A DNA stretch of 64,000 nucleotides, from NCBI RefSeq assembly GCF_002240355.1, contig NZ_CP016353.1:6611001-6675000 (forward strand). The letters run 5' to 3'. Position numbers and translations under genes: made by a program. Source of the DNA: Prauserella marina (GTDB taxonomy: Bacteria; Actinomycetota; Actinomycetes; Mycobacteriales; Pseudonocardiaceae). Under the pieces are notes generated by a model, which saw only the letters and a program-made list of their open reading frames with translations, did no database searches and had not been told where the DNA came from. Of this stretch, positions 2,990 to 39,138 are shown one piece after another (within the stretch, counting starts at the first letter, position 1; the number at the start of each line of letters is the position of its first letter).

Positions 2990-3073
2990 TGCGGATCTCG
3001 CGTGCCTGGGTGCGGATCTCGGCGTCCCGAGTGCGGATCTCGGCGTCCTGGACGGGGGACTCGCGGGCGTTAA
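2990..3073 (+). repeat. 21-bp repeat array A (four units)
   Basis: Four consecutive 21-bp units start at 2990, 3011, 3032 and 3053. Core consensus: GCGGATCTCGGCGTCCCGAG. The last unit is variant and begins CGGGGGACTCGCG, as in array D. The array ends 13 bases before the ATG of the pentapeptide-repeat gene. Translated, it gives seven-residue pseudo-repeats (ADLGVPS-like), but no start signal or gene supports a protein. Related arrays lie at 33.4, 33.7 and 39.0 kb. Confidence 0.85.
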
Positions 3074-3086
3074 GTAGATTGCCGAC

Positions 3087-4184
3087 ATGAATCGGGTTCG
3101 GGTCGCCCTTCGGTCGCCGCTTTTCGGCACCGTCTTTTGTGCCGTCCTGCTGGTGCTCGCCATCAGCGTGTGGCTGCTCACCGACGGGAAAACCAACCGG
3201 AGCGACGCGCTGCGCACCGGAGGACTCGCGGGCGGCGCCATCGTCGCGCTCTACGCCCTCTGGCTCAACGACCGGCGGCGCCGCGTCGAGGAAGCCCGAC
3301 AGGAGATCGAACGCAAACGTCACGAACTCGAAAGCCGCCGCATATCCGACGAACGGTTCGCTCGCGCCATCGAACTGCTCGGCGACGAGGCCGACCAGGT
3401 CAGGGTCGGTGCGCTGCACGTTCTCGCCGGGCTCGCCAAATCGCGGCCCGGCTACACCCAGACGGTGCTCGACGTCGTGTGCGCCTACCTGCGCCGCCCC
3501 TACTCGCACCCCCGGCTCACCGGAGGCAAGGGCCCCGCTCCTCAGAACGAAGGTCCCGAAAGGGAAATCGCGGAACGGGAACTCCAGGTCAGGCTTACCG
3601 CACAACGCATCCTGCTCGACCTGCTCCCCGAAGCGGGCCAGGACGAAGCGCCCTCCTACGACCTCGACCTGACCGGAGCCACGCTGGAATACCTCGACTG
3701 TTCCGGCCGCAAGCTCGGGACGGTGCTGATGCGCTACGCGAAGCTGCACAGCAGCATCAACTTCAGCGGCTGCGACTTCGGGGGCCCGGTCTGGTTCACC
3801 GCGGCGAGCACCAACGAGGGACGGCTCACCGGCCGCTTTCGCTGCACCAACTCGACGTTCAGGGAACGCGCGTGGTTCAGCGGTACGGAATTCGGCGAAC
3901 TCGCCGACTTCACGGGTACGACCTTCTTGGGGAAGGCGAGCTTCAAGGACTCCACGTTTCACGGCGACGCGCTGTTCGGCACGACGTCCTTCCACACGGG
4001 ACTCGATCTTCGGAGGGCGAGGTTCGCGTCCCGACTCGACCTGCGCTGGAAACGCGGCCCAGAGGCGATTTCCCTCTACAACACCGTGATCGAGCCGGAA
4101 GTCGAAGCCGATCTGCCGGAAGGCTGGACGACAACGAAGTTGCCGGACGGCCAGACCAAACTGACCGCCCCTCCGGGGACCTGA
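3087..4184 (+). CDS. Membrane protein with cytoplasmic pentapeptide-repeat domain
   Basis: The 365-residue protein has two membrane helices (about 12-30 and 46-60), then a charged, probably coiled-coil stretch (about 62-92, RRRRVEEARQEIERKRHELESRR). A helical segment follows, like HEAT-type repeats (ERFARAIELLGDEADQVRVGALHVLAGLA). From about residue 190 to 310 there are loose pentapeptide repeats of the A(D/N)LxX class, such as LTGATLEYLDCSG, FSGCDFGG, FTGTTFLGKASF and FHGDALFGTTSF. These form a right-handed beta-helix used for protein-protein contact. The whole plan is frequent in actinomycetes and its function is not established. It is a single gene downstream of repeat array A. Confidence 0.85.
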   Translation: MNRVRVALRSPLFGTVFCAVLLVLAISVWLLTDGKTNRSDALRTGGLAGGAIVALYALWLNDRRRRVEEARQEIERKRHELESRRISDERFARAIELLGDEADQVRVGALHVLAGLAKSRPGYTQTVLDVVCAYLRRPYSHPRLTGGKGPAPQNEGPEREIAERELQVRLTAQRILLDLLPEAGQDEAPSYDLDLTGATLEYLDCSGRKLGTVLMRYAKLHSSINFSGCDFGGPVWFTAASTNEGRLTGRFRCTNSTFRERAWFSGTEFGELADFTGTTFLGKASFKDSTFHGDALFGTTSFHTGLDLRRARFASRLDLRWKRGPEAISLYNTVIEPEVEADLPEGWTTTKLPDGQTKLTAPPGT

Positions 4185-4193
4185 GCGACCGTC

Positions 4194-6500
4194 CTAATCG
4201 AACAGTGCGGGCAGCGTGCCTTCCCACGCGACGCGAAGCTCTTCGAGCGGGTAGTTCGCGACGTCCTGGATGTCCAGCGCTGCCGATTCGGGATCGACGA
4301 CGCCGGTCTTGCGCCACGGCAGTCCGCGTGCCTCGCACATCTCGGTGAAGCGCAGTTCCTCACTGCGAGGCACGGCGACCAGCACCCTTCCCGCCGATTC
4401 GGAGAAGAGCTGGACGAACGGATCGGCGTCCTGGTCGAGCAAAACCCTTGCCCCGCACTGTCCGATGAGTGCCATCTCGACAACGGCCTGTGCCAGCCCG
4501 CCGTCGGCGAGATCGTGGGCAGCCGAGATCATCCCGTCCCGCGAGCCCGCGACGAGGATCTCGGCGAGCAGGCGCTCCCTTTCGAGGTCGACCTCAGGCG
4601 GCAGCCCGCCGAGGTGACCGTGGATGACACTGGCCCACGCGGAACCGCCGAACTCGTCCTTCGTGTCGCCGAGCAGCAACAAGCTCTCACCCGGCTCCGA
4701 GCCGATCCCGGTGGGGATCCTGCGCCGGACGTCGTCGATGACGCCGAGCACGCCGACGACCGGAGTCGGCAGAATCGCCGTGTCGCCGGTCTGGTTGTAG
4801 AAGCTCACGTTGCCGCCGGTGACCGGAATGCCGAGCTGCGCGCAGCCGTCGGCAAGGCCGTGCACCGCGCGCTCGAACTGCCACATGACGCCCGGGTCGC
4901 GCGGCGAACCAAAGTTGAGGCAGTTCGTCACCGCGACTGGCTCGGCTCCGCCGGTGGCCACGTTGCGATACGCCTCGGCGAGCGCGAGCTGGGTGCCCTG
5001 GTACGGGTCGAGGAAGACGAACCGACTGTTGCAGTCGGTCGCGACTGCGACGCCCCTTCCGGTCGACTCGTCGATGCGAACGACGCCCGAGTCGGAAGGC
5101 TGGGCGAGCACGGTGTTGCCACGAACGTAGCGGTCGTACTGCTGGGTGACCCATTCCTTCGAAGCCTGGTTGGGCGAGGAGATCACCTTGAGCAGGGTGT
5201 CCCTCAATTCGTCCGAAGTGGACGGACGAGGCAGCGAGTCCGTGCTGTCGGCCTGTAGCGCGTCCTGCGTGGCAGGACGCGCGAACGGCCGGTCGTACAC
5301 CGGCCCCTGGTGGGCGACCGTGCGCGGCGGCACGTCGACGACGACCTCGTCGTGCCACGTGATGACGAGGTGATCGCCATCGGTGACCTCACCGATCTCC
5401 GTCGCGATGACGTCCCACTTGCGGCACACCTCCATGAAGGCGTCCACATCGGCCGGAGCCACGACGGCACACATCCGCTCCTGCGATTCGCTGGAAAGGA
5501 TCTCGGCTGGCGTCATCCCCTTCGCGCGAAGGGGAACCCGGTCGAGGTTGATGTGCATCCCTCCGTCGCCTGCCGCTGCCAGCTCGGACGTCGCGCAGGA
5601 AAGCCCGGCACCGCCGAGGTCCTGGATGCCGACGACCAGCTTCTTGCCGAACAGTTCGAGACAGCACTCGATGAGCACCTTCTCGGTGAACGGGTCGCCG
5701 ACCTGGACGCTGGGCAGCTTCTTGCGACCGCCGCTGGTCTCGTCGCCGGAGAAGGAGTCACTGGCGAGCACGGAGACGCCGCCGATGCCGTCGAGCCCCG
5801 TCCTCGCCCCGAACAGGATGATCTTGTTGCCGGTACCTGACGCGTGCGCGAGGTGCAGGTCCTCGACGCGCATCGCGCCGACACACATGGCGTTGACCAG
5901 CGGGTTGCCAGCGTAGCTCTCGTCGAAGACGACCTCGCCGCCGATGTTGGGAAGGCCGAGGCAGTTGCCGTAGCCCGCGACGCCCGCGACGACACCGGGA
6001 AGCACCCGCTTGGTGTCGGGCGCGTCAGCAGGGCCGAACCGCAGCGGGTCGGCCACGGCGAGCGGCCTGGCACCCATGGCGAGGATGTCGCGCACGATGC
6101 CGCCGACACCCGTCGCCGCGCCCTGGTACGGCTCCACATAGGACGGGTGATTGTGGCTTTCCACCTTGAAGGTGACGGCCCAGCCGTCACCGATGTCGAC
6201 CACACCGGCGTTCTCGCCGATGCCCGCGAGCATCTTGGCCCGCATCTCCGGCGTCGTCGTCTCGCCGAAGTAGGCGAGGTGCCGCTTGGAGGACTTGTAC
6301 GAGCAGTGCTCACTCCACATCACGGAGTACATGGCCAGCTCGGCCTCCGTCGGCCGCCGCCCGAGGATCTCGCGGATCCTCGCGTACTCGTCGTCGGCCA
6401 GACCGAGTTCGAGGTAGGGCTGCGGAAGTTCGGGGGTGCCCGCTGCGTGCGCGGTGGTGTCGACGACCGGTGTTTCGACGTGAGGTGATGCCACGGCCAT
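4194..6500 (-). CDS. purL: Phosphoribosylformylglycinamidine synthase subunit PurL
   Basis: The product is 768 residues, the usual size of the small-type PurL that works with PurQ and PurS. It makes formylglycinamidine ribonucleotide amidine from FGAR, ATP and ammonia, the fourth step of purine synthesis. Recognisable motifs are [11 protein letters not shown] near the N-terminus, [31 protein letters not shown] and [11 protein letters not shown] in the second AIRS-type half. Start 6500 (MAVASP) gives a conventional length; ATG 6539 would add 13 residues. It is the first gene left of a divergent ABC exporter. It is therefore separated from purQ-purS, with which it normally forms one operon, by two opposite-strand genes. 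Confidence 0.97.
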
Positions 6501-6569
6501 CAGGATACTTGCCGGTCCCGCGAGAAAATCGGTCGCCATCGACGCAGGTCGTTCGTAACGTTTTCGGAC

Positions 6570-8192
6570 GTGCCACTCAAGCCGTACCCGGCTCCCGACA
6601 TCCGCCTGCCAGCACGACTGACGCCGATCACCTTCCTCGTCGCCCTGCTCAGGGGGCGACCTTGGCTTGCCGTCGGTTCGATCTTGTTCGGCGCGCTGTG
6701 GCTCGTGCCGAGCGCGCTGCTGCCCGTCGTCGTCGGCAACGGCATCGAAGCCGGTATCGCGGACGAGGACAGGTCGGCGCTGCTCGGCTACGCCTTGGCG
6801 ACCGCGGGCATCGGCGTGGTGCAGGCCGTTTTCGGCACCACACTGCTCGGTCTCGGGGTCGGCATGTGGATGCACGGCGCCTCGGCGACGCAGCGGCTCG
6901 TCGTGACGCACGCGGCGAAGCTCGGATCGGGGCTGCGCGCCAAGGTGGGCACCGGCGAAGTGCTCGCCGTCACCTCCTCCGACATCAACAAGATCGGCAA
7001 CGTGCTGGAGGTGATCGGCAGGCTCGGCGGCGCGGTGGTGGCCTTCCTCACGGTCGGCTTCGTACTGGTCGGCTACTCACCGCTGCTCGGGATGGTCGCG
7101 CTCGTCGGTGTTCCGATCGCGACCATCGGCGTCGGCTCGTTGATCGGCCCGCTCGAACGCAAGATCCGGTACCAGAGGGAACAGGTGACCGCCGTCAACG
7201 CGCTCGGCGCCGACATCGTCTCCGGCCTGCGGATACTCAGGGGAGTCGGCGGAGAACGCCAGTTCAACGCCAGGTTCCGCGACGCGAGCCAGCGGGTCCG
7301 GTTCGCGGGAATCGACGTGGCGAGACGGGAATCGTGGCTCACCGGAGCCGAGGTTCTGCTGCCTGGACTCGTCACGGTGGCGATCACCTGGCTCGGCGCG
7401 AAACTCGCCGTCGCGGGAACGATCAGCGTCGGTGAGCTGGTCGCCTTCTACGGTGCCTCCGCGTTTCTCGTCATCCCGGTGAGCACGGCGACCGAGAGCG
7501 CCGGTGCGCTGGCATCGGCGCTGGCATCGGCAGGCAAGGCAGCCAAGGTACTCAACCTGCGTGCCGACCTGACCGAGCCGGAATCACCGGTCACCCTTCC
7601 GGAAGGCCCGCTGGAACCCCACGATCCGAAGACCGGTTTCACGGCGGTAGCCGGCAAACTCACGGTCGTCGACATCGGAAAACAGGGCGAGGAGCTGGCC
7701 GAACGACTGGCCAGATTCACCGACAGTGGCGAGCCTGCTTCGCTGTCCGGTGTCCCGGCCGACAGGGTCGCGCTGACCGAGCTGCGCAGCCGCGTCGTGT
7801 ACGCGCACAACCAGGACCTGTGGTTTTCCGGGATCCTCTCTGCCGAGATCGCGGCCGACGTCCCGGGAAAGGTCACCGTCGACAACGCGCTGTGGGCGGC
7901 AGACGCCGAAGACATCGTCGCCGCGCTTCCCGAAGGGATCGAGGAGCGCATCGGGGAACGCGGCAGGGAGATCTCCGGTGGTCAACGGCAGCGGCTGGCA
8001 CTGGCGAGGGCGCTCGCCACCGACGCCGACGTACTGCTGCTCGACGAGCCGACGTCGGCGGTCGACGCACACACCGAGGCCCGCATCAGCAGGCGAGTCG
8101 CCTCACTGCGCAGGGAAAGGACGACCGTCGTGTTCAGCCAGAGCCCACTGTGGGCCGCTGTCGCCGACGAGGTGGTGACGACATGCAACTGA
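6570..8192 (+). CDS. ABC exporter half-transporter, degenerate Walker A subunit
   Basis: The 540-residue protein has an N-terminal six-helix exporter domain (about 20-320) and a short ATPase domain. The ATPase keeps the signature ISGGQRQ (about 468) and Walker B plus catalytic Glu VLLLDEPTS (about 490). The Walker A region reads [15 protein letters not shown], without the GxxGxGKS/T loop, and the H-loop His is replaced (VVFSQSP). It cannot bind ATP normally on its own Walker A side. Its partner, overlapping by 10 bases, has the reverse defects, so they must work as a heterodimer. GTG 6570 lies eight bases after a TAACGT -10, consistent with a leaderless mRNA. Cargo unknown. Confidence 0.93.
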
Positions 8193-9919
8193 AACTGCCG
8201 CTCGCCTCGGCCGCCGTCGCGAGGCGCTGGGCCGCGACGACGTTTCGCGCCAACCGCCGCGAGTTCGTCGTCGTCCTCGTGCTCTTCACGATCGCCGCCG
8301 TCGCGGGCCTCGCCGGACCGCAGTTGCTCGGCCTGATCGTCGACGAGGTCGCCGGTGGCGAGAACACGATCAGCATCGACGTGCTCGCCGTGGTGTTCGT
8401 CGCCGTACTGGTCGTGCAGAGCTGGCTGCGGCGATCGGCCCGACTCAAGGCAGGGGTACTCGGCGAACGGGTGCTCGCCGAGACGAGGGAAGGCTTCGTC
8501 GGTCAGGCGCTGCGGCTGCCGCTGGGCACCGTCGAGGCCGCGGGCACCGGCGACCTGCTGAGCAGGGCGACCTCCGACATCAGTCGAGTCGACCGCGCTG
8601 TCCGCCACGCGGTACCCGAGATCACCGTGGCCGCCTTCACCGTGCTGCTGACCATCACGGCCATGATCATCACGTCGCCGTTGCTCGCACTGGGCCTGCT
8701 CGTCGCCGTCCCCGTGCTGTTCCTGCCGACCAGGCGCTACTGGCGCAGGGTGCCTTCGACGATCGCGTGGATGCTGGACTCGTGGTCGGGAGTACAGACC
8801 GATACGCACGAAACCGTGGAAGGCGCGCGAACGGCCGAGGCGCTGTCACGCACCGGCCGCAGGATCACCGACGGCGAAAAAGCACTACAGGAGGCCATCG
8901 GCGGGGAAAGGGAACTGCGAAGGCTCCAGGTTCGCTGGGTGCCGTTCCTCGAACTGTCGCACACGTTGCCCATCGCGGCGATGCTGCTGCTCGGCGGCTG
9001 GGCATACGCCAACGATCTCGCCGCGCTCGGCACGATCACCACGATGGTGCTGTACATGCAGGCTCTCGCGGAGCCGATGGACACGTTGATGTGGTGGTTC
9101 GAAGACCTCATGGTGTCCGGCACGGCGCTGCGCAGGGTGCTCGGCGTACGCGGCGCCGACGACGAGAAGAACGGTGGCAGTCCTCGGGGAACCGACATCG
9201 AGGTCAGCGGCGTGCGCTTCGGCTACACGGCCGATCGCCAGGTACTGCACGGCATCGACCTGAGCATCCCGCGAGGCGAACGGCTTGCCGTCGTGGGTCC
9301 CTCCGGAGCGGGGAAGTCCACTTTGGGCAGGTTGCTCGCCGGGATCGCCGCACCGAGCGAGGGTTCGGTGACCGTCGGTGGCATCGAGGTCTCCTCGCTG
9401 CCCGACGACACGCTGCGGCGTGAGGTACTGCTGCTCACCCAGGAGCAGCACGTCTTCAGCGGGACGTTGCGGGAAAACCTCACGTTGCCTGGTGATGGTG
9501 CCTGGAGTGACGACGAATTGCTCGCCGCGCTGGACTCGACGGGCGCACGGGCTTGGGCCGATTCGCTGCCGGAGGGGCTTTCCAGCAAGATCGGCACGGG
9601 TGGCGAGCCGGTTCCCGCCGCGACGGCACAACAGCTCGCGCTGGCGAGGGTGGTTCTGGCCGACCCGCACACCCTCGTACTCGACGAGGCGACGTCACTG
9701 CTCGACACCTCGTCGGCGAGAGAACTCGAACGGACACTGGCGAAGGTGCTCGAAGGAAGGACGGTGATCGCGATCGCACACCGGCTGCACACCGCGGCGG
9801 CTGCCGATCGCGTCGCGGTCGTCGAGGACGGCAGGATCAGCGAACTGGGCAGTCACGGCGAACTGCTTGCCGCGCGAGGGCCCTACGCGCGACTCGTGCA
9901 TGCCGCCCGCGCCGACTGA
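8183..9919 (+). CDS. ABC exporter half-transporter, degenerate signature subunit
   Basis: The 578-residue partner of the preceding gene begins at ATG 8183 inside its last codons (10-base overlap, translational coupling). It has a six-helix membrane domain and a complete Walker [10 protein letters not shown] (about 372), Walker [10 protein letters not shown] (about 496) and H-loop His (IAIAHRL). The LSGGQ signature position reads VPAATAQQ, so it is lost. Pairing its Walker A with the intact signature of the first subunit yields one good ATP site, while the opposite site has lost both halves. This resembles TM287/288- and TAP-type heterodimers, carried to an extreme. A hairpin across its stop codon ends the unit. 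Confidence 0.93.
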
Positions 9920-9929
9920 GCGCGGGCGG
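9903..9929 (+). terminator. Hairpin across the stop codon of the ABC operon
   Basis: Perfect 10-bp arms CCGCCCGCGC (9903-9912) and GCGCGGGCGG (9920-9929) leave a seven-base loop that contains the TGA stop. There is no T run, as is common for actinobacterial terminators. It lies between convergent genes and could serve purQ from the other strand too. Confidence 0.7.
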
Positions 9930-9941
9930 TGTGCACAGACG

Positions 9942-10631
9942 TCAGCTCGTCGCCGCGAGGGGCCTCAGCGCGTCGAGCGCCGAGTAGAACATGCCGAGGC
10001 CGTCGTCAGAAGGCCCGGTGAGCGCGTCGATGGCGTGCTCGGGGTGCGGCATGAGCCCGACAATCCTGCCGTCGGCGCTGCTGATGCCGGCGATGTCGTC
10101 GCGAGAACCGTTGGGATTGCCCCCGACGTAGCGGAAGACGACCCTGCCTTCGGCTTCGAGCGCGTCGAGCGTGTGCTGGTCGGCGACGTAGCCGCCCTCA
10201 CCCGACTTGAGCGGGATCAGAACCTCGGCGCCCTTGTCGTAGCGAGTGCTCCACGCCGTCGTGTTGTTCTCGACCCTCAGCCACTGATCGCGGCACACGA
10301 AGTGCAGTTTCTCGTTGCGTACCAGCGCACCTGGCAGCAATCCCGCCTCGCACAAGATCTGGAATCCGTTGCAGATTCCGAGCACCGGCATGCCCTTGCC
10401 AGCGGCTTCGATGACCGACGTCATCACCGGCGCGAACCTGGCGATCGCGCCACAGCGAAGGTAGTCGCCGTAGGAGAAGCCGCCGGGCACGATGACCGCG
10501 TCGACTCCCTTGAGGTCGGCGTCGGCGTGCCACAGCGCGACCGCCTCGGCCGACGAGCGCGTGACCGCGCGGGCGGCGTCGACGTCGTCGAGCGTGCCGG
10601 GGAAGGTGATGACCCCGATACGCGGGGTCAC
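9942..10631 (-). CDS. purQ: Phosphoribosylformylglycinamidine synthase subunit PurQ (glutaminase)
   Basis: This 229-residue class I glutamine amidotransferase supplies ammonia to PurL. Motifs: [19 protein letters not shown] near the N-terminus, the nucleophile loop GICNGFQIL, and the His/Glu pair in MPHPEHAID at the C-terminus. GTG 10631 was chosen because it overlaps the purS stop (GTGA), the standard coupled arrangement, and because the frame upstream of it is purS DNA. It is transcribed as purS-purQ. The usual next gene, purL, is missing from the operon and lies 3.4 kb away beyond the ABC exporter. Confidence 0.97.
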
Positions 10632-10867
10632 TGTTCGACCCTCCGCACGGTCCAGTCCTCGATCACGGGGTTCGCGAGGAAGCCCTCCGCGATCTTGGCG
10701 AGGGTTTCGTCGTCGACCTCGTCGTCGACTTCCAGTTCGAATCGCTTGCCTTGGCGAACCTCGGTGACCCCGGTGAAGCCGAGGCGCGGGAGCGCACCCG
10801 CGACCGCCTGGCCTTGTGGGTCGAGAATCTCGGGCTTGGGCATGATGTCGACGACTACTCGGGCCAC
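10628..10867 (-). CDS. purS: Phosphoribosylformylglycinamidine synthase subunit PurS
   Basis: The product is 79 residues, the normal PurS size. PurS is a small alpha/beta protein that bridges PurQ and PurL in the multi-subunit synthase. The sequence starts [19 protein letters not shown] and contains [18 protein letters not shown], both characteristic. It is the first gene of purS-purQ, with a four-base overlap at its end. The 300-base region upstream contains a GC-rich hairpin that may act in the leader. Confidence 0.95.
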
Positions 10868-10927
10868 GACGGGCTGCTCCTATATTTCCGCTGTTTCCGC
10901 AGGTCGATGCCCCTTGAGCGTAGCTTA

Positions 10928-10960
10928 GGGGCCGAGAGGCCCCCGACACCCCTCGGCCCC
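10928..10960 (-). promoter_or_regulatory. GC-rich hairpin upstream of purS
   Basis: Arms GGGGCCGAG (10928-10936) and CTCGGCCCC (10952-10960) enclose 15 bases about 60 bases before the purS start. It could be a leader hairpin that modulates purSQ, or an unrelated terminator. I recognise no purine riboswitch core near it. The rest of 10868-11170 contains no gene that I can support. AT-richer words at 10979-10993 (TATACATACGTA) may hold the purS promoter. Confidence 0.4.
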
Positions 10961-11170
10961 ATGCCGACTTCACCTGACTTATACATACGTAGGACGGGCA
11001 ACTATTCCCGACCGTTGCGCGATACCGGCCAATTCGCCGGTTTGGCTCAATGCCGGTAACCCTGAGCCACCGCCGGTGGATTCCCGGCGCCGCGCATGGC
11101 GCGTCTCGTCGCGGGACGCGGCGCGACAGCGAGTGGGATCACCCACAGTAAAAGCGCGGCGAGGGCCGCC

Positions 11171-11602
11171 TCATCGCGGCTCCCCTCCGACCTTGTCGAG
11201 CAGCGCGATCAAGGTGCCGCGCTCGGCGGGAGTGAGGACGGAGAACAGTTCGTCGACGACCGCCGTCCGCTCGGCACGGATTCGCAGGCACATGGTGCGC
11301 CCCTCTTCGGTGAGTTCGAGCAAGGTTGATCTGCGGTTGCACTCGTCGATCCTGCGGCGCACGCAGCCTGCCTCCTCAAGCGCGTCGACCAGCGGGGTCA
11401 CCGCGCGAGGGACGACACCGAGCCGCGTCGCGAGCTCGGCCATGCGCGGCGGCTTCTCGCAATGTCCGATCACACTCAGCGCCCTCGCCTGCGCGGGAGT
11501 CAGACCGAGCGGTCCCAGCCGCTGCATTTGCGTGACCCTGGTTCTGCGCGCCAACCGCAGGAACAGATCACTCAGGCGCGCCTCGCCCTCTTCGGAGTCC
11601 AC
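11171..11602 (-). CDS. MarR-family transcriptional regulator
   Basis: This 143-residue winged-helix protein has LTPAQARALSVIGHCEKPPRM, the recognition-helix region LATRLGVVPRAVTPLVDAL, and the wing sequence RRRIDECNRRSTLLELTEEG. It is divergent from an ABC exporter with 63 bases between the starts. Those bases contain an inverted repeat, so it is most likely the local repressor of itself and the exporter, released by a ligand that the exporter removes. The ligand cannot be inferred. Confidence 0.93.
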   Translation of the reverse strand: MDSEEGEARLSDLFLRLARRTRVTQMQRLGPLGLTPAQARALSVIGHCEKPPRMAELATRLGVVPRAVTPLVDALEEAGCVRRRIDECNRRSTLLELTEEGRTMCLRIRAERTAVVDELFSVLTPAERGTLIALLDKVGGEPR

Positions 11603-23427: not shown

Positions 23428-23784
23428 TCAGTTCGGGCTGTCGGCCGATGCCGGGGTGTTCGGCGTGTTGGGGCTGACCGGGCTGTTGGCGGTGTTCGGG
23501 CTGTTGGGGCTGTTCGGCGTGTTCGGGCTGTTGGCCGTGTTCGCGGTGTTGGCGCTGTTGGCCGTGTTCGCGCTGGCCGCCGTTCCTGGGCTGTTGACGC
23601 TCGCGCTGTCCACCGCACCGGCGGCACCGTTGCTGTGGTCGACGAGTTGCACGCTCGATGGCGAACGCTGGTCGTTGAGCTGGACGTCGGCCGACGCGGT
23701 TCCGGCGACGGCGATCAGGCCACCGACTCCGGCAGCGGCGGCTGCCCCCGTGATGACGGCCCAGCGGCGCTTGATGTTTGCCAT
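23428..23784 (-). CDS. Secreted low-complexity Ser/Pro/Asn/Thr repeat protein
   Basis: The 118-residue product has a clear signal peptide (MANIKRRWAVITGAAAAAGVG ... GTASA, cleavage near 32). A short unique part follows (DVQLNDQRSPSSVQL), then from about residue 66 a run of tripeptides x-A/P-N such as SPN, TAN and TPN to the end. ATG 23784 is supported by a strong purine-rich ribosome site (GGGAAAGGAAAAGG). Asn every third residue with alternating S/T and P/A suggests an extended, hydrophilic wall-side filament or stalk. No cysteine, hydrophobic anchor or sortase motif is visible. I know no family for it. Confidence 0.75.
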   Translation of the reverse strand: MANIKRRWAVITGAAAAAGVGGLIAVAGTASADVQLNDQRSPSSVQLVDHSNGAAGAVDSASVNSPGTAASANTANSANTANTANSPNTPNSPNSPNTANSPVSPNTPNTPASADSPN

Positions 23785-30269: not shown

Positions 30270-30653
30270 GGTGTGGCGCTCCTTCGCGGGTAAGACGTGT
30301 GAAGACTTCCATTCCCGCAGGGCGACGCATAGACAGCCTGCCCCGCAGGAAAACGCCCACTCACGTGGCGAACTCTTGACCACGTACACCCGCCACGCCA
30401 ACAACATGACGGCCGCTCGTGGTGGGAGCCGGTTTCTGCTGAGCTGGTAGACGGCGAACGCGGATGCGTGCGGGGTCCATGCCGTGATGGTCAGGAGCGT
30501 GAGCGTCGCGGCGATGCCGCCGAGGCGGCAGGAGCACACCCGCCGTCGCGGCGGCACTGACGGCACTCGACCAACGCGCACGGTCGCTGACCACCGAAGC
30601 CGAGTACGCCTCGGCCCGCTGAACCAACCCTCCACAAAGGACCAGTCGGATCG
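30270..30653 (-). other. Gap with DUF397-like open segment
   Basis: This stretch, upstream of the orphan ORF and downstream of purA, has no independently supported gene. On the minus strand, in frame with the orphan ORF, 30270-30407 encodes KSS...CGAGCLCVALREWKSS, recalling the DUF397 pattern (KSSxSxGxxxCVxVAxRDSK). DUF397 proteins usually sit beside XRE regulators, and none is here. It may be an N-terminal domain of the orphan ORF or a gene fragment. Confidence 0.35.
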
Positions 30654-32675
<2,022 letters not shown>

Positions 32676-32748
32676 CGCGAAAGTGTTGATCGCGTCACCT
32701 TTCTCCGTCACAGTCGGAAAGTTCCCAACTCCGGAGAGAGGCGACGTC

Positions 32749-33387
32749 GTGACCAGCCAACGCACGTTCCGTCATGCTCTGACCGCCATCGGCTCGGCCC
32801 TGCTGCTCACCGCGGGAGTGACCAACGTCGCCTCGGCCGAACCGCCGAACATCCCCGACGAGACCACCGCGCAGGCCCAGCTCGCCGAACTCGCCGTCGC
32901 TCCCGACGGCTCGATGGACGGCTACGACAGGGACCTCTTCCCGCACTGGAGCGACCAGGGCGACAACTGCAACACCAGGGAAGCCGTGCTCAAGCGCGAC
33001 GGAACCGGGGTGGAAACGGGAACCGACTGCTACCCGACGTCAGGTAGCTGGCACAGCCCCTACGACGACGAAACCTGGACCGAACCGTCCGACGTCGACA
33101 TCGACCACGTCGTGCCACTCGCCAACGCCTACCGGACCGGCGCCGACGAATGGACCACCGCGCAGCGCGAGCAGTTCGCCAACGACCTCACCGACGCGCA
33201 GCTCATCGCCGTCACCGACAACGTCAACCAAGAGAAGGGCGACCAGTCACCGGAGGCGTGGAAACCGCCTGCCGAGTCCTACTGGTGCACCTACGCGAGC
33301 ATGTGGATCAGCGTCAAGCACAAGTGGGAGCTGACCGTCAACGATGCCGAAAAAGTCGCGCTCACCGAGATGCTCGAAACCTGCTGA
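32749..33387 (+). CDS. Secreted HNH nuclease (GmrSD/DUF1524-like)
   Basis: The 212-residue protein has a signal peptide (about 1-30, RHALTAIGSALLLTAGVTN ... ASA). Its nuclease domain holds DIDHVVPLANAYRTGA (the beta-beta-alpha metal His), a conserved Asn-containing helix around LIAVTDNVNQEKGDQSPEAW, and SYWCTYASMWISVKHKW. Cysteine pairs (DNCNTRE, GTDCYP; YWCTY, ETC) fit an extracellular fold. GTG 32749 with GGAGAGAGG upstream gives a complete signal peptide. It likely degrades external DNA for nutrients or defence. Its stop codon lies inside 21-bp repeat array B. Confidence 0.92.
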   Translation: MTSQRTFRHALTAIGSALLLTAGVTNVASAEPPNIPDETTAQAQLAELAVAPDGSMDGYDRDLFPHWSDQGDNCNTREAVLKRDGTGVETGTDCYPTSGSWHSPYDDETWTEPSDVDIDHVVPLANAYRTGADEWTTAQREQFANDLTDAQLIAVTDNVNQEKGDQSPEAWKPPAESYWCTYASMWISVKHKWELTVNDAEKVALTEMLETC

Positions 33388-33445
33388 GCCCGCGAGTCCC
33401 GCACTCGGGACGCCGAGATCCGCGCCCAGGCACGCGAGATCCGCA
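33383..33445 (-). repeat. 21-bp repeat array B (three units, inverted)
   Basis: Three 21-bp units occupy 33425-33445, 33404-33424 and 33383-33403 and read on the minus strand. The first two match units of array A almost base for base (GCGGATCTCGCGTGCCTGG, GCGGATCTCGGCGTCCCGAG), and the last is the GGGACTCGCGGG variant. The final unit covers the nuclease stop codon (TGA 33385-33387). The bases between this array and array C hold no gene. Confidence 0.85.
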
Positions 33446-33658
33446 CCGGCCCCTGGGTTTGGCGACGGCGGACAACATGGTCGGCCGCCCGCGTCGGCAA
33501 CAGAGTGCCTCCGACGACGAGTATCCGTCTCGCACCGGCACGCGCGTCCGCTGACGAATGCCGCGCGTGCCCACGCTCGCCCGCCAACCCAGGTTGTCAG
33601 GCTCGGCTTCGCGACCGTACGACTCGTCTGAGCAGGACCAGACTCCGAAAGCCACGAA

Positions 33659-33721
33659 TGCGGATCTCGGATACCCAGACGCAGATTTCGCTGTCCTGAG
33701 CGCGGAACTCGCTGTCCTGTT
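33659..33721 (+). repeat. 21-bp repeat array C (three units)
   Basis: Units start at 33659, 33680 and 33701, are more diverged (TGCGGATCTCGGATACCCAG, CGCAGATTTCGCTGTCCTGA, CGCGGAACTCGCTGTCCTG) and read on the plus strand. The last unit ends inside the stop codon of the convergent DUF3151 gene. Together with array B it forms an inverted pair filling both ends of the 330-bp gap between two convergent genes. The 213 bases between the arrays contain nothing I can identify. Confidence 0.8.
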
Positions 33722-34133
33722 AGGCCAGGCCGGTGGCTTGGGCCGCGGCGGGGTCGGAGTCGATGATGAACTGCTTGCAGCGTTCGTATTCCTCGGTCTC
33801 GCCGATCCGGCCCGCGGCCTTCGCGAGAACGGCGAGCGACCTCAGGAAGCCCTGGTTGGGCCCGTGCGCCCACGGGACGGGACCGAAGCCCTTCCAGCCC
33901 GCACGCCGGAGCTGATCAAGGCCCCTGTGGTAACCGGTGCGGGCGTAGGCGTAGGCCGCGACGACCTCGTCCTCGCCGAGCGCACGCTCGCCGAGCGCGG
34001 CCCACGTGGCGCTGAAGTCGGGGTGTTCGGCAGCGACCTCTGCCGGATCCGTACCCGCGTCGAGCGCTGCCTGTGGCTCCGGCCGCTCTGGCAGTTTGGT
34101 GGCTTCCGGTTCGAGGAGGTTGCCGTGAGTCAT
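33720..34133 (-). CDS. DUF3151 family protein
   Basis: The 137-residue protein contains LLEPEATKLPERPEPQAAL, HPDFSATWAALGERAL, YARTGYHRGLDQLRRAGWKGFGPVPW and GFLRSLAVLAKAAGRIGE, a signature helical sequence conserved across actinobacteria next to fructose-bisphosphate aldolase, as here. It is soluble and its function is unknown. ATG 34133 starts at the usual family N-terminus (MTHGNLL); the frame extends further but without similarity. A 28-residue membrane ORF and fbaA lie upstream. Confidence 0.92.
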   Translation of the reverse strand: MTHGNLLEPEATKLPERPEPQAALDAGTDPAEVAAEHPDFSATWAALGERALGEDEVVAAYAYARTGYHRGLDQLRRAGWKGFGPVPWAHGPNQGFLRSLAVLAKAAGRIGETEEYERCKQFIIDSDPAAAQATGLA

Positions 34134-34167
34134 GCCGCCATTGTGCAGCACTCGCCCTCGCCTGCCC

Positions 34168-34254
34168 TCACAGGATGAGAGCAATCAGCACGCTGCTGCC
34201 GCCTAGTACCAGTGCTGCCACGAGAACGGCGGCGACGAGTCGCTTCGGCATCAT
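34168..34254 (-). CDS. Possible 28-residue membrane peptide
   Basis: ATG-ATG at 34254-34249 opens MMPKRLVAAVLVAALVLGG, followed by SSVLIALIL and a stop at 34168. A positively charged start, one hydrophobic helix and almost nothing else describe a small membrane protein. GGAGG lies 12 bases before the first ATG, slightly far. It sits between the fbaA terminator and the DUF3151 gene. Chance hydrophobic frames of this size exist in GC-rich DNA, so confidence is moderate. Confidence 0.4.
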   Translation of the reverse strand: MMPKRLVAAVLVAALVLGGSSVLIALIL

Positions 34255-34313
34255 CTTCGATTCCCGCCTCCACTTCGCACAGCCCATTCAGGCCATCAAG
34301 GACTCGGCTTTTG

Positions 34314-34351
34314 CCGTGCCGGCACCGCTCGAAGCCGCGGTGCCGGCACGG
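34314..34351 (-). terminator. Hairpin terminator of fbaA
   Basis: Perfect 14-bp arms CCGTGCCGGCACCG (34314-34327) and CGGTGCCGGCACGG (34338-34351) with a 10-base loop lie seven bases beyond the fbaA stop. There is no T run. Confidence 0.75.
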
Positions 34352-34358
34352 AGGTACG

Positions 34359-35387
34359 TCAGAGCTTCTTGCCCGCCGACTTGAGGTTCTCGGCCGCCTC
34401 GACGACGCGAGTTGCCATGGCACCCTCGGCCGCCTTGAGGTAGCTGCGCGGGTCGTAGGTCTTCTTGTTGCCGACCTCACCGTCGATCTTGAGCACGCCG
34501 TCGTAGTTCTTGAACATGTGATCGGCGATAGGCCGGGTGAACGCGTACTGGGTGTCGGTGTCGACGTTCATCTTCACGACGCCGTAGGACAGCGCCTCGT
34601 GGATCTCCTCAAGCAGCGATCCGGAGCCGCCGTGGAAGACGAGTTCGAACGGCTTCGATCCCTCGGCGAGGCCGAGCTTCTCCGATGCGACCTGCTGACC
34701 GCGCTTGAGCACGTCCGGACGCAACTGCACAGCGCCCGGCTTGTAGGCGCCGTGCACGTTGCCGAACGTCGCGGCGAGCAGGTACCGGCCCTTCTCACCC
34801 GCGCCGAGCGCGTCGATGGTCTTCACGAAGTCGCCCTCGGCCGTGTAGAGCTTTTCGTTGATCTCGTTGGCGACACCGTCTTCCTCGCCGCCGACGACGC
34901 CGATCTCGACCTCAAGGATGATCTTGGCCGCCGCGGACTTCGCCAGCAGCTCGGTCGCGATCGACAGGTTCTCGTCGAGGTCGATGGCCGAGCCGTCCCA
35001 CATGTGGGACTGGAAGAGCGGGTTCTCACCCCTGTCGACGCGCTCCTGCGAAATCTCCAGCAGCGGCCTGACGAAGCCGTCGAGCTTGTCCTTGGGGCAG
35101 TGGTCGGTGTGCAGCGCGACGTTGATCGGGTACTTCGCGGCGACGACGTGCGCGAACTCCGCGAGCGCCGCCGCACCGGTGACCATGTCCTTGACCTTCT
35201 GCCCCGACGCGAACTCGGCACCACCCGTCGAGAACTGGATGATCCCGTCGCTCTCGGCTTCCGCGAAGCCCCTCAACGCGGCGTTCAGGGTCTCCGACGA
35301 GGTCACGTTGATGGCGGGATACGCGAACTCGTTCGCCTTGGCCCTGTCCAGCATTTCAGCGTAGACCTCGGGGGTGGCGATGGGCAT
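34359..35387 (-). CDS. fbaA: Fructose-bisphosphate aldolase, class II
   Basis: This 342-residue zinc aldolase of glycolysis and gluconeogenesis cleaves fructose-1,6-bisphosphate to DHAP and glyceraldehyde-3-phosphate. It shows MPIATPEVYAEMLDRAKAN at the N-terminus, zinc ligands in LHTDHCPKDK, EVEIGVVGGEEDG, GAYKPGAVQL, and the phosphate loop FHGGSGSLLEEI. GAGGAGG precedes the ATG at 35387. It is followed by a strong hairpin. Neighbouring DUF3151 is a conserved partner by position. Confidence 0.97.
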   Translation of the reverse strand: MPIATPEVYAEMLDRAKANEFAYPAINVTSSETLNAALRGFAEAESDGIIQFSTGGAEFASGQKVKDMVTGAAALAEFAHVVAAKYPINVALHTDHCPKDKLDGFVRPLLEISQERVDRGENPLFQSHMWDGSAIDLDENLSIATELLAKSAAAKIILEVEIGVVGGEEDGVANEINEKLYTAEGDFVKTIDALGAGEKGRYLLAATFGNVHGAYKPGAVQLRPDVLKRGQQVASEKLGLAEGSKPFELVFHGGSGSLLEEIHEALSYGVVKMNVDTDTQYAFTRPIADHMFKNYDGVLKIDGEVGNKKTYDPRSYLKAAEGAMATRVVEAAENLKSAGKKL

Positions 35388-35504
35388 CGTTGTCCTCCTC
35401 AGCGGTGTCCTGCTCGTGCCGCAGGCTCGGGGCGCTACTTGCCCCGCATCCTACGAGGCCGGTCCACGACGACGCCCTGCCGTGCAGCGAACGCCACCTT
35501 TGCC

Positions 35505-35540
35505 GCATTCGGCGCACATCGGACCGCGTGCGCCGAATGC
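35505..35540 (-). terminator. Hairpin downstream of the LLM oxidoreductase gene
   Basis: Perfect 13-bp arms GCATTCGGCGCAC (35505-35517) and GTGCGCCGAATGC (35528-35540) with a 10-base loop lie 22 bases after the LLM stop codon. There is no T run. It separates this gene from fbaA. Confidence 0.7.
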
Positions 35541-35561
35541 CGAGGTGACGTTCGCCGCTGG

Positions 35562-36392
35562 TCAGAGAAGAATGTCCGCGAGCTGCCGGTATCCGGGCAA
35601 CGGGTCGTCGCCCGCGCTGAGCACCTGGACGCACACGTGATCGGCACCGGCGTCGAGGTGGGCGGTCACTCCCTCGGCGACGGTCTTCGCGTCGCCGTGG
35701 ATGCCGAGCGCGTCGATGAGCTGATCACTACCGCCGTCGGCGATGTCCTCGTCCTTCCAGCCCAACCGCTTGAGGTTGTTCACATAGTTGACGAGATGCA
35801 GATACGGATTCTCGATGGCCGGCCTCGCCACCGCGCGCGCCCGCTCGGGATCGGTGTCGAACACCACCTTCTGCTCAGGCGCCAGCAGGACGCCGTCGCC
35901 GAGGATGTCCCTTGCCTGGCGAGTGTGCTCCGGCGTCGTGAGGTAAGGGTGCGCACCGGCGGTCCGCTCGGCGGCAAGCCGCAACACCTTGGGCCCGAGC
36001 GCGGCGAGTGCCATTTCCTCGACCGGAACACCCGCCTCGTCGAGCTCGTCGAGATAGGACACGATCTTCTCGTAGGGCTTCTGGTAGATCTGGGTCGCCT
36101 CGGGGTGTCCGATGCCGACGCCCAGCAGGAACCGGCCCGGATGCCGCGCCGCGATGCGCTTGTACGAGGCGCCCACCGTCGCGGCGTCGCTGTTCCACAT
36201 GTTGACGATTCCGGTGGCGACCGCGATCGTGCTAGTCGCGTCGAGCAGATCCTCGGCGAGTCTCAGCTCGGCACCCGGTGACCCGCCGATCCAGATGGCT
36301 CCGTAACCGAGCTTCTCCACTTCGACGGCGAGGTCGGGGTTGAGCCCTGGGGCGCCCCGCCAGATTCCGATCTTCCCGAGATTCACAGCCAT
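35562..36392 (-). CDS. LLM-class (luciferase-like) F420- or flavin-dependent oxidoreductase
   Basis: The 276-residue TIM-barrel protein begins MAVNLGKIGIWRGAPGLNPDLA. It has GYGAIWIGGSPGAELRLAEDLL, RIAARHPGRFLLGVGIGHPE and MALAALGPKVLRLAAERTAGAHPYLTTPEHT, the pattern of the short TIGR03620-like actinobacterial group that usually binds F420. The substrate is unknown. ATG 36392 gives the family N-terminus; the longer frame reaches into the promoter. It is divergent from an SDR gene across a palindrome, suggesting joint control. Confidence 0.9.
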   Translation of the reverse strand: MAVNLGKIGIWRGAPGLNPDLAVEVEKLGYGAIWIGGSPGAELRLAEDLLDATSTIAVATGIVNMWNSDAATVGASYKRIAARHPGRFLLGVGIGHPEATQIYQKPYEKIVSYLDELDEAGVPVEEMALAALGPKVLRLAAERTAGAHPYLTTPEHTRQARDILGDGVLLAPEQKVVFDTDPERARAVARPAIENPYLHLVNYVNNLKRLGWKDEDIADGGSDQLIDALGIHGDAKTVAEGVTAHLDAGADHVCVQVLSAGDDPLPGYRQLADILL

Positions 36393-36467
36393 GGCTGTGC
36401 CAACAAAGTCACCCCTTCCCCGCATTCCCGGCTGTCCTGTTTGGACAACGCGAGAAGTACCTACCAA

Positions 36468-36482
36468 CCAGTAGCCTACTGG
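36468..36482. promoter_or_regulatory. Palindrome between LLM and SDR genes
   Basis: CCAGTAG-C-CTACTGG is a perfect 15-bp palindrome in the 137-bp divergent gap, 48 bases before the SDR start. Its form suits a TetR- or GntR-type repressor. No regulator gene is adjacent. Confidence 0.5.
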
Positions 36483-36529
36483 GAGTAAGTTGCGGTACGG
36501 TCTGCTCAAGGCAGACCGAGGAGGCACCA

Positions 36530-37423
36530 ATGGCGTTCCTGACCGGCGGCAAAGTCAAAGGCAAGGTCGTACTCATCACCGGAGCCGCTCGCGGCATTGG
36601 AGCCGGGCTGGCGGAACGACTCGCCGCGGCAGGCGCCAAGGTCGCGCTCGTCGGCATCGAGGCGGCCGAACAGCGCAAGGTCGCCGAGCGGATCGGAAAC
36701 GCGGCGCACTCGTGGGAAGCCGACGTCACGAGCTGGAGCGATCTGGAAAGAGCGACCGAGGGCGTCGTCGAACACTTCGGCGGCATCGACATCGTCATCG
36801 CCAACGCGGGCATAGCCACCACCGGATTCGTTCGTTCCGTCGACCCCGCGGCCTTCGAAAAGGTGATCGAGGTCGACCTGCTCGGCGTGTGGCGAACCTT
36901 CCGCGTCGCCATGCCGCACGTCGTCGAACGCAAGGGCTACCTGCTGGCGATCTCCTCGCTCGCCGCCATCACTCACGCGCCGGGCATGGCCAACTACGCC
37001 GCGGCGAAAGCGGGGGTGGAGGCGTTCTGCAACAGCCTGCGCGCCGAAGTAGCCCACCTCGGCGTCAAGGTCGGCGTCGCGCACCCGACGTGGATCAAGA
37101 CCGACCTCGTCGAGAGCGCCGACGCGCATCCCGTCTTCGGCAAGCTTCGCGCGGGCATGCCCGGACTCATCGGCAAGACGTATCCACTCGACGTCGCGCT
37201 CGATTGCCTCGAAGCCGGAGTGCGGCGAAGGGCGAGGACCATCCACGTACCGCGCTGGGTCGGTGCGTTGAAACTGATCAGGGCCTTCCTGCCGCCGATC
37301 GTGGAAATCGGCGCGCGAAGCAGGGTGCCCTCGGCCGACAGGGCGGCACTGCGGGACATCGAGACGAGGGGCGCCCGCGAGGCCGCGCTCACCGGCCACG
37401 GAGGACGAGCCGCGACGAAGTAG
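36530..37423 (+). CDS. Short-chain dehydrogenase/reductase
   Basis: The 297-residue classical SDR has the cofactor motif ITGAARGIGAGLAERLA (TGxxxGxG), NAG in VIANAGIATTG, the catalytic Ser in AISSLAAITHA, and YAAAKAG with Tyr and Lys. The C-terminal 60 residues extend beyond the usual core with a hydrophobic stretch (VGALKLIRAFLPPIVEIG), as in mycobacterial SDRs thought to touch membranes. GAGGAGG precedes the ATG. It is probably co-regulated with the divergent LLM oxidoreductase; the substrate is unknown. Confidence 0.93.
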   Translation: MAFLTGGKVKGKVVLITGAARGIGAGLAERLAAAGAKVALVGIEAAEQRKVAERIGNAAHSWEADVTSWSDLERATEGVVEHFGGIDIVIANAGIATTGFVRSVDPAAFEKVIEVDLLGVWRTFRVAMPHVVERKGYLLAISSLAAITHAPGMANYAAAKAGVEAFCNSLRAEVAHLGVKVGVAHPTWIKTDLVESADAHPVFGKLRAGMPGLIGKTYPLDVALDCLEAGVRRRARTIHVPRWVGALKLIRAFLPPIVEIGARSRVPSADRAALRDIETRGAREAALTGHGGRAATK

Positions 37424-37440
37424 CCGCCGGGTCTGCCCAC

Positions 37441-38856
37441 TCACCCAGCTCGCCCGCGGAAGGTCAATCCCACGGCGAACGTCATGGCGGCCAGAACGGC
37501 GGCGGCGACGAACGCGCTCGACATGCCCTTGATGAAGGCGGCGTGCCCGAGCCCGCCTCTGGCACCTCCCATCATGGTGGCGATGGTGACCAGCAGAGCG
37601 AGCCCAACCGCCGCACCGAGCTGCTGCATCGTCTGAAGAACACCGCCCGCGACCCCGGCGTCCTCCTGCCCGACCGTGGTCATGATCACGACGACAAGCG
37701 GGGAAAATCCGACGCCGCCGCCGAGGCCGACCAACACCAACGGGCCGAACAGCCCCGTGAAGTAGGTGTCGCCGGAGGAGAGCCCTATGAGCCAGAGCAG
37801 CCCGGCCACCAGCAGTACCGCACCGACAAGCACCAGCGGCTTCGGACCCCATCGTTCGAGCAGCATCGGCATCAACCGGGCCATGACGAAGATCGAGCAG
37901 GCCATGGGCAGGAACGCGAGTCCGGTCATCAGCGCGCTGTAATCGAGAACGGTCTGCATGAACTGGGTCAGGAAGAAGAACGTCGAGATCGTGATCATCG
38001 GTCCGAGGAAGAAATTCAGGAACGCCCCTGCCCGATTGCGCTCGCCGAACAGCCACAGTGGCATCAGGGGCATCCGGATCCTGGCTTCTACGAACACGAA
38101 AACCACCATGAGCAGGAGTCCGGCGACGATACAGCCGATGCCGTCAACCACGCCCCATCCCTGCTCAGCCACCCTGATGAACCCGTAGACGACCGCCCCG
38201 GCCCCTCCCACGGCGGTGAGGGCGCCGGCCACGTCGAGACGATTGGGGCGACGGAGGGATTCACCGACGAAACGCCGGACCGACACCGCGATCAGCACGC
38301 CGATCGGGACGTTGATGAACAGCACCGCGCGCCAGGAGAACCACTCGGTGAGCAGACCTCCCATGACGAGCCCCAGCCCGAACCCTCCACTCGCGACCAC
38401 GGCGGAAAGTCCGAGCGCCCGAGCCTTCGAGCGCGGTTCCACGAACACACCAGCGACAAGCGCGAGTGTGTTGGGACCGGCGGCCGCGGCACCGACCCCC
38501 TGGAGCGCCCTCGCGGCTATCAGCATTTCGGCCGAATCGGCCAGCCCACCCAGCAGCGACGACAGGGTGAAGGCGACGACGCCGAGCAGGAAGACTCTTC
38601 GCTGTCCGAACCAGTCGCCCGCCCTGCCACCGAGCAGGAGAAACCCACCGAAGGGCAGCGTGTAAGCGTTGATGACCCAGGCCAGTCCCGTGGGTGAGAA
38701 CCCGAGTTCGCGCTCGATGTGCGGCAACGCGACATTCATGACCGTCAGGTCGACGATGAGCATGAGCTGGCAGGTCAAGAGAATCGCGAGTGCGACACCC
38801 TGCCGTGGTGACCTCGGTTGATCCGTCGACGTCGAGGGCCGCGTTCGTTCGGCCAA
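37441..38856 (-). CDS. DHA2-family MFS drug exporter
   Basis: The 471-residue protein has about 14 membrane helices and MFS signatures: LMLIVDLTVMNVALPHIERELG (helix 1, motif D1), WVINAYTLPFGGFLLLGGRAGDWFGQRRVFLLG (motif A), GVGAAAAGPNTLALV and GFGLGLVMGGLLTEWFSWRAVLFINVPIG (motif C). It should export drugs by proton antiport. No regulator is adjacent; it is convergent with the SDR gene. The 340 bases beyond its start hold repeat array D. Confidence 0.94.
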   Translation of the reverse strand: MAERTRPSTSTDQPRSPRQGVALAILLTCQLMLIVDLTVMNVALPHIERELGFSPTGLAWVINAYTLPFGGFLLLGGRAGDWFGQRRVFLLGVVAFTLSSLLGGLADSAEMLIAARALQGVGAAAAGPNTLALVAGVFVEPRSKARALGLSAVVASGGFGLGLVMGGLLTEWFSWRAVLFINVPIGVLIAVSVRRFVGESLRRPNRLDVAGALTAVGGAGAVVYGFIRVAEQGWGVVDGIGCIVAGLLLMVVFVFVEARIRMPLMPLWLFGERNRAGAFLNFFLGPMITISTFFFLTQFMQTVLDYSALMTGLAFLPMACSIFVMARLMPMLLERWGPKPLVLVGAVLLVAGLLWLIGLSSGDTYFTGLFGPLVLVGLGGGVGFSPLVVVIMTTVGQEDAGVAGGVLQTMQQLGAAVGLALLVTIATMMGGARGGLGHAAFIKGMSSAFVAAAVLAAMTFAVGLTFRGRAG

Positions 38857-39033
38857 TGGGACTCCCTCCGAGACCGTGAACGTCCCGACCGGACCTCCCT
38901 TACCGGCCCGGCACTCTCACAGTTAGGTCCGCCGAAGGCCCTTCGATAAGAAAGCGAATTTCCCCGAGCACGCCGCTCGACGCGACCGCGAGTTCGAGAC
39001 AGGCACGGCAGGAACGGTCCCCGGACCCGCGAA

Positions 39034-39138
39034 CGCGCATCTCACCGGCCCGAGCGCGGATCTCGGTAGCCCGAACGCGGAACTCGGCGACGTGAGCGCG
39101 GATCTCGACGGGCTGGGCGGGGGACTCGCGATCGAGGG
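39034..39138 (+). repeat. 21-bp repeat array D (five units)
   Basis: Units start at 39034, 39055, 39076, 39097 and 39118. The first four vary around CGCGGATCTCGGNNNCCCGA, and the last is the CGGGGGACTCGCG variant seen at the end of array A. It lies in the 341-bp gap (38857-39197) between the MFS exporter and the activator gene, ending 60 bases before the latter. The rest of the gap shows no gene; AT-richer words near 38945-38960 may belong to the exporter promoter. Confidence 0.85.

Follow-up and report, generated by a model that had tools for sequence, protein, structure and literature searches.

What are the short repeats that lie in four intergenic arrays of a Prauserella marina chromosome segment, and why do two of these arrays sit at the stop codons of convergent genes? 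The window, a stretch of 64,000 nucleotides (contig NZ_CP016353.1, positions 6,611,001 to 6,675,000), contains arrays A to D (Table 1), each built from the same 21-bp unit in strict register, as a preliminary description had reported and as a base-by-base reading upholds. A two-unit pattern matches the window eight times and is absent from 200 shuffles of two-base blocks; Tandem Repeats Finder returns arrays A, B and D with a period of 21, array C being missing at score 40. An Rfam scan of the window at gathering score gives no match, and no description of the family was found in openly licensed PubMed Central papers. Based on our comparisons, we propose that the arrays are polar, helically phased 3'-end modules that replace hairpin terminators and are probably bound by a candidate protein, a reading to which we assign a probability of about 0.42.

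The anatomy of the element is well defined. It opens with YGRRY, continues as a run of units of the form GCGGATCTCG N6 YGRRY and usually closes with GSGGGACTCGCG; the unit consensus is GCGGATCTCGN6YGRRY. In end logos of 78 arrays, conservation sets in abruptly at the YGRRY ahead of the first unit and, in the arrays that carry the terminal variant, stops abruptly after GSGGGACTCGCG. Three of the four window arrays (A, B and D) end in this variant, which gives them the polarity ascribed to them earlier. The 78 arrays include the 3-kb loci L001-L030, which were fetched with the exact core pattern, so the set leans to the consensus; conservation of the core is thus partly a matter of ascertainment, arrays having been found by their core, whereas spacing and placement are free of that bias. 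Neighbouring cores with at most one mismatch, counted at distances of 15-27 bp, lie exactly 21 bp apart in 88/91 cases in P. marina, 100/102 in genome G021, 18/18 in P. endophytica, 28/29 in P. cavernicola and 30/30 in P. flavalba, two genera in all. Twenty-one base pairs make two turns of B-DNA, and the fixed spacing fits sites on one face of the helix, as expected of a roadblock. At the variable positions, identity is 0.584 between adjacent and 0.557 between non-adjacent units of an array vs 0.523 between arrays, differences beyond the standard error, and 305 of 334 units are distinct, where independence predicts 329.7. Because the 21 bp are kept and the units within an array are only slightly more alike, the spacing is held while much of the sequence drifts. 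The gradient of core type along P. marina arrays is weak, only C4 being raised in first units (0.24 of 45 vs 0.08 of 118).

The four arrays belong to a large dispersed family. The P. marina chromosome was sampled evenly, with the window and 59 stretches of 20 kb each (1.244 Mb in total); at a threshold of 20 bits a profile detects 47 arrays in this sample, and the reversed control has none. The total extrapolates to about 264 arrays in the 7.0-Mb genome, far above the ten copies that the preliminary description had set as the floor for a repeat family. A genome-wide search, which it had also called for, gives 80 + 64 places and a control of zero when made with the exact two-unit pattern alone. 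Units of 21 bp without spacers, in some 264 arrays, do not have the repeat-spacer layout of CRISPR (24-48 bp repeats, unique spacers). Array density is about twice as high at 1.5-3.7 Mb, around the skew-inferred terminus (6.00 vs 2.19-3.41 per 100 kb elsewhere).

Placement relative to genes follows a clear tendency. Genes were predicted by a codon-based caller (1143 genes), whose stops are exact and whose starts are not. Among P. marina gaps of 40-900 bp, arrays are present in 16/90 where the flanking genes converge, in 17/338 where they are codirectional and in 2/179 where they diverge. The tail points to a gene 3' end in 37/47 P. marina arrays and in 36/43 of an overlapping set (binomial p ~1e-8 vs 0.41 expected from gap lengths). 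The same holds in 14/17 arrays of G021, 10/12 of P. endophytica, 31/40 of P. flavalba and 32/40 of P. cavernicola, the last two counts coming from 20 loci per species that were taken from the top matches of two P. endophytica array loci and are not a random sample. The arrays are mostly antisense to the gene whose stop codon they follow. Where the tail faces the 3' end, the core ends at most 14 nt from the stop codon in 13/36 P. marina cases, 24/31 in P. flavalba, 14/32 in P. cavernicola and 8/10 in P. endophytica. Pairs of arrays within 800 bp are 12 head-to-head, 0 tail-to-tail and 1 tandem in P. marina; the corresponding counts are 18/0/0 in P. flavalba, 15/0/2 in P. cavernicola and 4/0/2 in P. 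endophytica. Arrays B and C are such a pair, head-to-head as their facing orientation had been described, with tails outward, each towards a gene 3' end. The earlier claim that both cover stop codons stands for array C, whose last unit overlaps the DUF3151 gene's stop codon (33720-33722); the conserved part of array B stops short of one, its tail lying 3 nt beyond the TGA at 33385-33387 of the gene with the GmrSD C-terminal domain (GmrSD_C). As RNA, the entire stretch from array B through the spacer to array C is more stably folded than its shuffled versions (dG -160.6, z -5.3), and 12 chosen head-to-head pairs all fold with negative z, from -2.3 to -23. The G+C-rich RNA hairpin expected of an intrinsic terminator is seen in these 12 pairs and not in 30 arrays folded singly.

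Strong inverted repeats are scarce in the convergent gaps that hold arrays. They occur in 3/16 such gaps with arrays vs 39/74 without in P. marina (p 0.025), in 0/9 vs 15/22 in P. flavalba (p 0.0008), in 3/13 vs 14/21 in P. cavernicola (p 0.03) and in 1/3 vs 12/25 in P. endophytica (p 1.0; small numbers). Moreover, arrays and hairpins swap at orthologous gaps in both directions. The B/C gap is a palindrome in P. endophytica, P. flavalba and P. cavernicola alike, and the gap that bears arrays in P. endophytica (L247) and P. flavalba (L292) has, by eye, a hairpin in P. marina (L043). Several of our readings of palindromes, orthologous gaps and cores were made by eye. In Prauserella and Amycolatopsis, the gap orthologous to 33387-33720 of the window holds long palindromes of differing spelling (L100, L101, L102, L112-L115, L120). 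These intergenic palindromes share with arrays B and C the same convergent gap, and their spelling differs between species; they are single long hairpins, terminator-like by eye, and unlike the arrays they have neither tandem units nor polarity. No published name for them was found. One palindrome arm, AAGGCCACCTT, has 13 copies, both strands counted, in 120 kb from P. endophytica and a single one in 1.244 Mb of P. marina, and another, AAGGGCACCTT, has 10 copies in 120 kb from P. cavernicola and none in the same P. marina sample; such recurring arms make up a second fast-changing family of gap elements.

What happens to the arrays over time? A DUF3151 search places the window near P. endophytica, P. 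flavalba and P. cavernicola, and arrays are present in all four genomes examined of this genus (as defined by GTDB). When two P. endophytica array loci are aligned genome-wide, a head-to-head pair is found at both gaps in all four species. By eye, the core at both gaps is GCGGATCTCG with variants in P. marina, GGGGGACTCG in P. endophytica, GCACGACTCG in P. flavalba and GGGGGACTCG mixed with others in P. cavernicola; larger locus sets leave the consensus cores of P. flavalba and P. cavernicola unchanged. Positions 2-6 of the core thus have three spellings among four species at a fixed anatomy, a case of concerted turnover. At the second site, inner units are nearly identical in the P. endophytica and P. 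flavalba arrays and stop-side units are unlike. Pooled over 66 arrays of the three relatives, neighbouring units are more alike in the tail half than in the head half (0.84 vs 0.75, Wilcoxon p 1.4e-5, with paired and orthologous arrays that are not independent); by species, p is 0.014 in P. flavalba, 0.0009 in P. cavernicola and 0.16 in P. endophytica. One array of G021 (C3:435933-436446) has a regular higher-order repeat of units and looks like a recent tandem amplification. Sites are both kept and lost or gained. For six array sites in the relatives a P. marina counterpart was located; four are occupied there (those of L245 and L246; P. flavalba L287, equivalent to L053; P. cavernicola L318, equivalent to L039) and two are not (P. 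flavalba L292 with P. endophytica L247, equivalent to L043; P. cavernicola L308, equivalent to L068, where the interval is uncertain). Only comparisons into the P. marina sample were used, some rows without an array in the wider comparison coming from misplaced intervals. Comparisons between P. flavalba and P. cavernicola loci were excluded as circular, both sets of loci having been selected for the presence of arrays.

The family extends beyond the genus. A core-independent pattern, which requires three in-register CTCG and a G at both unit position 18 and unit position 1, has at least 50 matches in 13 and at least 25 in 24 of 297 genomes of the family Pseudonocardiaceae, with at most 7 in reversed controls. 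The 13 genomes fall into six genera, and carriers are patchy within genera. Saccharomonospora saliphila (74 matches, control 0) and Amycolatopsis anabasis (67, control 3) stand out among 50 named genomes; the matches listed also include, for A. kentuckyensis, A. iheyensis and A. decaplanina, a small number of units with a spelling of their own. Prauserella salsuginis, which despite its name lies outside the genus-mates compared here, has 4 matches (control 1). Among 148 genomes of the class, P. marina apart, none exceeds 14 matches, and those among the matches listed look coding by eye. We therefore reject a repeat private to P. marina, the core-independent patterns finding the family in several genera; it had looked private because the first pattern was tied to the P. 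marina core, and for the same reason P. flavalba had looked nearly empty (17 matches, control 2).

Do the arrays fall into a described class of repeats? MIRU are dispersed tandem repeats in actinobacterial gaps, near start and stop codons, with units of 40-100 bp. The arrays differ from them in their 21-bp unit, variable core, sharp ends and head-to-head pairs. REP/BIME elements, as described in PMC3733652, are GTAG- and CGTC-tagged palindromes in many intergenic copies, mostly between convergent or unidirectional genes downstream of coding regions, with neighbours often in opposite orientation and some families species-specific. The likeness in copy number, gap preference and opposite neighbours is plain (PMC3733652). 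However, a REP is a palindromic unit of 20-40 bp able to form a hairpin, whereas the array unit is non-palindromic and single arrays do not fold; the arrays are phased at 21 bp, polar and usually closed by a terminal unit; and their end logos show a YGRRY head and a GSGGGACTCGCG tail in place of a GTAG or CGTC tag. The TAACTGA direct repeats of Beggiatoaceae form 169 intergenic sets in one genome with a patchy distribution, and PMC4679880 proposes them as binding sites of a regulator not yet known. Their unit is 7 bp and lies mostly just upstream of start codons; the arrays have 21-bp units, lie mostly just downstream of stops and differ further in a core that varies between species. Prokaryotic satellites are tandem repeats scattered over a genome, 23 of them in Amycolatopsis mediterranei, and the available part of PMC6749651 names no 21-bp family, stop-codon placement or concerted change.

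No spreading agent emerges from the genomes. The GTAG class of REPs goes with RAYT, a Y1 transposase; its domain PF01797 has no match in P. marina and is present in 1/16 carriers of the arrays and in 4/20 non-carriers. The reverse-transcriptase domain RVT_1 (PF00078) is absent from P. marina and five other carriers, and present in 10/16 carriers and 8/20 non-carriers. Neither domain is therefore required by the arrays, and RAYT or a reverse transcriptase as spreader is rejected for P. marina, spreaders of other families not having been tested. Target-site duplication is not apparent either (observed mean 2.64 vs 2.52 for shuffled flanks), and one P. endophytica array pair had no match in phage and plasmid collections (BLAST, low-complexity filter on). 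Of the mobile element raised in the preliminary description, the transposase-driven, REP-like form thus falls away in P. marina, and other kinds of mobiliser were not tested.

How could such arrays work? Four features together lead us to a transcript-end module: the helical phasing, the abrupt ends, a polarity directed at the stop codon and the rarity of hairpins where a convergent gap has arrays. The arrays may terminate or insulate transcripts, taking the part of hairpin terminators. Transcript-end structure and protein-binding array, both put forward in the preliminary description, are the best surviving readings, with a function that we infer. The phased units would be occupied, along one helix face, by a candidate DNA-binding protein with sequence specificity, and the bound protein would halt RNA polymerase arriving tail-first, making a polar block. 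The core preferred by this protein (positions 2-6) would change along with the whole array set. In head-to-head pairs, an RNA hairpin between the arms could provide a second, bidirectional stop. New units seem to arise at the stop-codon side in the relatives. A fuller version, in which a family-specific DNA-binding factor on 21-bp-phased polar arrays, gain of gene-proximal units, concerted core change and replacement of hairpins gap by gap form one self-renewing transcript-end system, is a reading that we regard as unlikely.

Several observations weigh against the transcript-end module. Folding of 30 single arrays reveals no RNA structure: mean z is 0.20 for the gene sense and -0.07 for the array sense, and the share of arrays with z below -2 is 0% and 10%, respectively. 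None of the five column pairs of the CTCGG/CCGAG dyad, to which the preliminary description had drawn attention, is among the 14 most covarying pairs listed; the within-unit hairpin is hence rejected, and because single arrays cannot act as hairpins a bound protein is favoured. In P. marina codirectional gaps there is no exclusion of hairpins (2/17 with arrays vs 42/321 without). Ten of 47 P. marina arrays point at gene starts, arrays A and D of the window among the exceptions to the 3'-end tendency, and when the contiguous part of P. cavernicola is taken together with two orthologous loci, no more than 5/11 tails face a 3' end (3/8 in one count), in contrast to the high share at the similarity-picked loci of that species. 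The terminal variant, sharp where it is present, is found in only 46/78 arrays. In P. marina, 26/47 arrays have no second array (at least 14 bits) within 800 bp. The core is not strictly species-specific, P. endophytica and P. cavernicola having one consensus core in common. The tail-side gradient is absent in P. marina (n=25, p 0.48) and G021 (n=9, p 0.84). In P. endophytica and P. flavalba alike, a contiguous stretch of 320 kb contains no arrays, and 273/297 Pseudonocardiaceae genomes have fewer than 25 matches. Finally, a search for empty orthologous sites, as proposed earlier, found 0/5 syntenic P. marina array gaps occupied in P. cavernicola, where the comparison at D spans a gene, site A is a 50-bp gap, and five other P. 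marina arrays and all eight P. cavernicola arrays of the compared stretch lack synteny by which to judge.

Much of this would be expected of selfish or neutral repeat DNA whose units are multiplied by unequal exchange and dispersed through recombination or gene conversion, and that survives behind stop codons only as insertions elsewhere are harmful; core differences would then be the footprint of homogenisation rather than of a binding protein. We consider this a serious contender, short of an even chance. It explains well the patchy presence within genera, the empty P. cavernicola sites, the concerted change and the codirectional gaps without hairpin exclusion, and it gains from the near-identical neighbouring units seen by eye in P. 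endophytica and P. flavalba, the regular G021 array (C3, 436 kb), the greater likeness of tail-side units in P. flavalba and P. cavernicola and the number of distinct units below that predicted by independence. What it accommodates poorly is a spacing of exactly 21 bp, which both measured genera retain even as other positions change, a likeness of units within arrays below what simple tandem copying would give, the sharp ends, the hairpin scarcity in convergent array gaps and distances to stop codons that are tighter than gene avoidance alone needs. Alternatively, the head-to-head pairs could act purely as RNA, as long hairpins that end transcription or protect 3' ends, lone arrays being decayed halves. 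All the chosen pairs do fold, and at the two gaps aligned in four species both arms largely carry the local core (by eye), so that pairing survives sequence turnover. In P. marina 26/47 arrays are lone, arrays folded singly lack RNA structure, and for a hairpin neither a spacing of exactly 21 bp nor a special terminal unit would be required, which makes a pure RNA element improbable.

A signal at chromosome scale, for segregation, replication arrest or DNA uptake, that lies in gaps by chance could draw on the hundreds of copies, their polarity and their higher density near the terminus. Yet array orientation tracks the neighbouring gene, and when replication direction was checked, as the preliminary description had advised, no strand bias by replichore appeared (plus-strand arrays 15/29 before the skew turn near 3.4 Mb, 11/18 after); replication-linked roles are accordingly very improbable. 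Mobilisation as a REP-like element by a dedicated RAYT would fit the gap preference and the opposite pairing written of REPs, but the unit is not palindromic, target-site duplications are missing and the Y1 domain is distributed as described above, so we find this scarcely credible. Least probable of all are coding remnants of one repeat protein. Although 21 is divisible by three and some frames are open, only 1/47 P. marina arrays lies inside a called gene, and the arrays sit in gaps, mostly behind stops, antisense, and between many different gene pairs; the number and placement of sites refute the coding reading, as had been anticipated.

The features of the window are collected in Table 1. 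At 2956-3087, around array A, an extra gene (MFS-like by eye) lies between the orthologs in P. endophytica and P. flavalba, and none in P. cavernicola and P. marina. Overlapping tandem repeats of 9/18/27 bp (GTTCGGGCTGTT-like) at 23431-23583 of the window are probably a coding repeat.

Table 1. Arrays of the window, their parts and their neighbouring genes
Feature	Position	Strand	Description
Array A	2986-3065	+	head TGAAT 2986-2990; 3 units of 21 bp 2991-3053; tail GGGGGACTCGCG 3054-3065
Neighbours of array A			GNAT acetyltransferase gene, stop at 2956; pentapeptide-repeat gene, ATG 3087 (Pfam)
Gene with GmrSD C-terminal domain (GmrSD_C)	32749-33387	+	3' end at array B (Pfam)
Array B	33391-33449	-	head CCGGT 33449-33445; 2 units 33444-33403; tail GCGGGACTCGCG 33402-33391
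Spacer between head-to-head arrays B and C	33450-33654		
Array C	33655-33722	+	head CGAAT 33655-33659; 3 diverged units 33660-33722; without terminal variant
DUF3151 gene	33720-34184	-	3' end at array C (Pfam)
Array D	39030-39130	+	head CGAAC 39030-39034; 4 units 39035-39118; tail GGGGGACTCGCG 39119-39130
Neighbours of array D			divergent gap: MFS gene (minus) and Fis-type regulator gene, GTG 39198 (Pfam)

What are the implications of such arrays? If the transcript-end module is real, part of an antibiotic-making actinobacterial family would possess a protein-dependent terminator distinct from both hairpins and known Rho sites, and terminator prediction in such genomes would have to include the arrays. 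If the arrays do not end transcripts, they would still clearly exemplify, in bacteria, how hundreds of dispersed loci change in concert and keep their anatomy, and the four related genomes make that process testable. Either way, a spacing of two helical turns that is kept through the change of the core calls for a cause.

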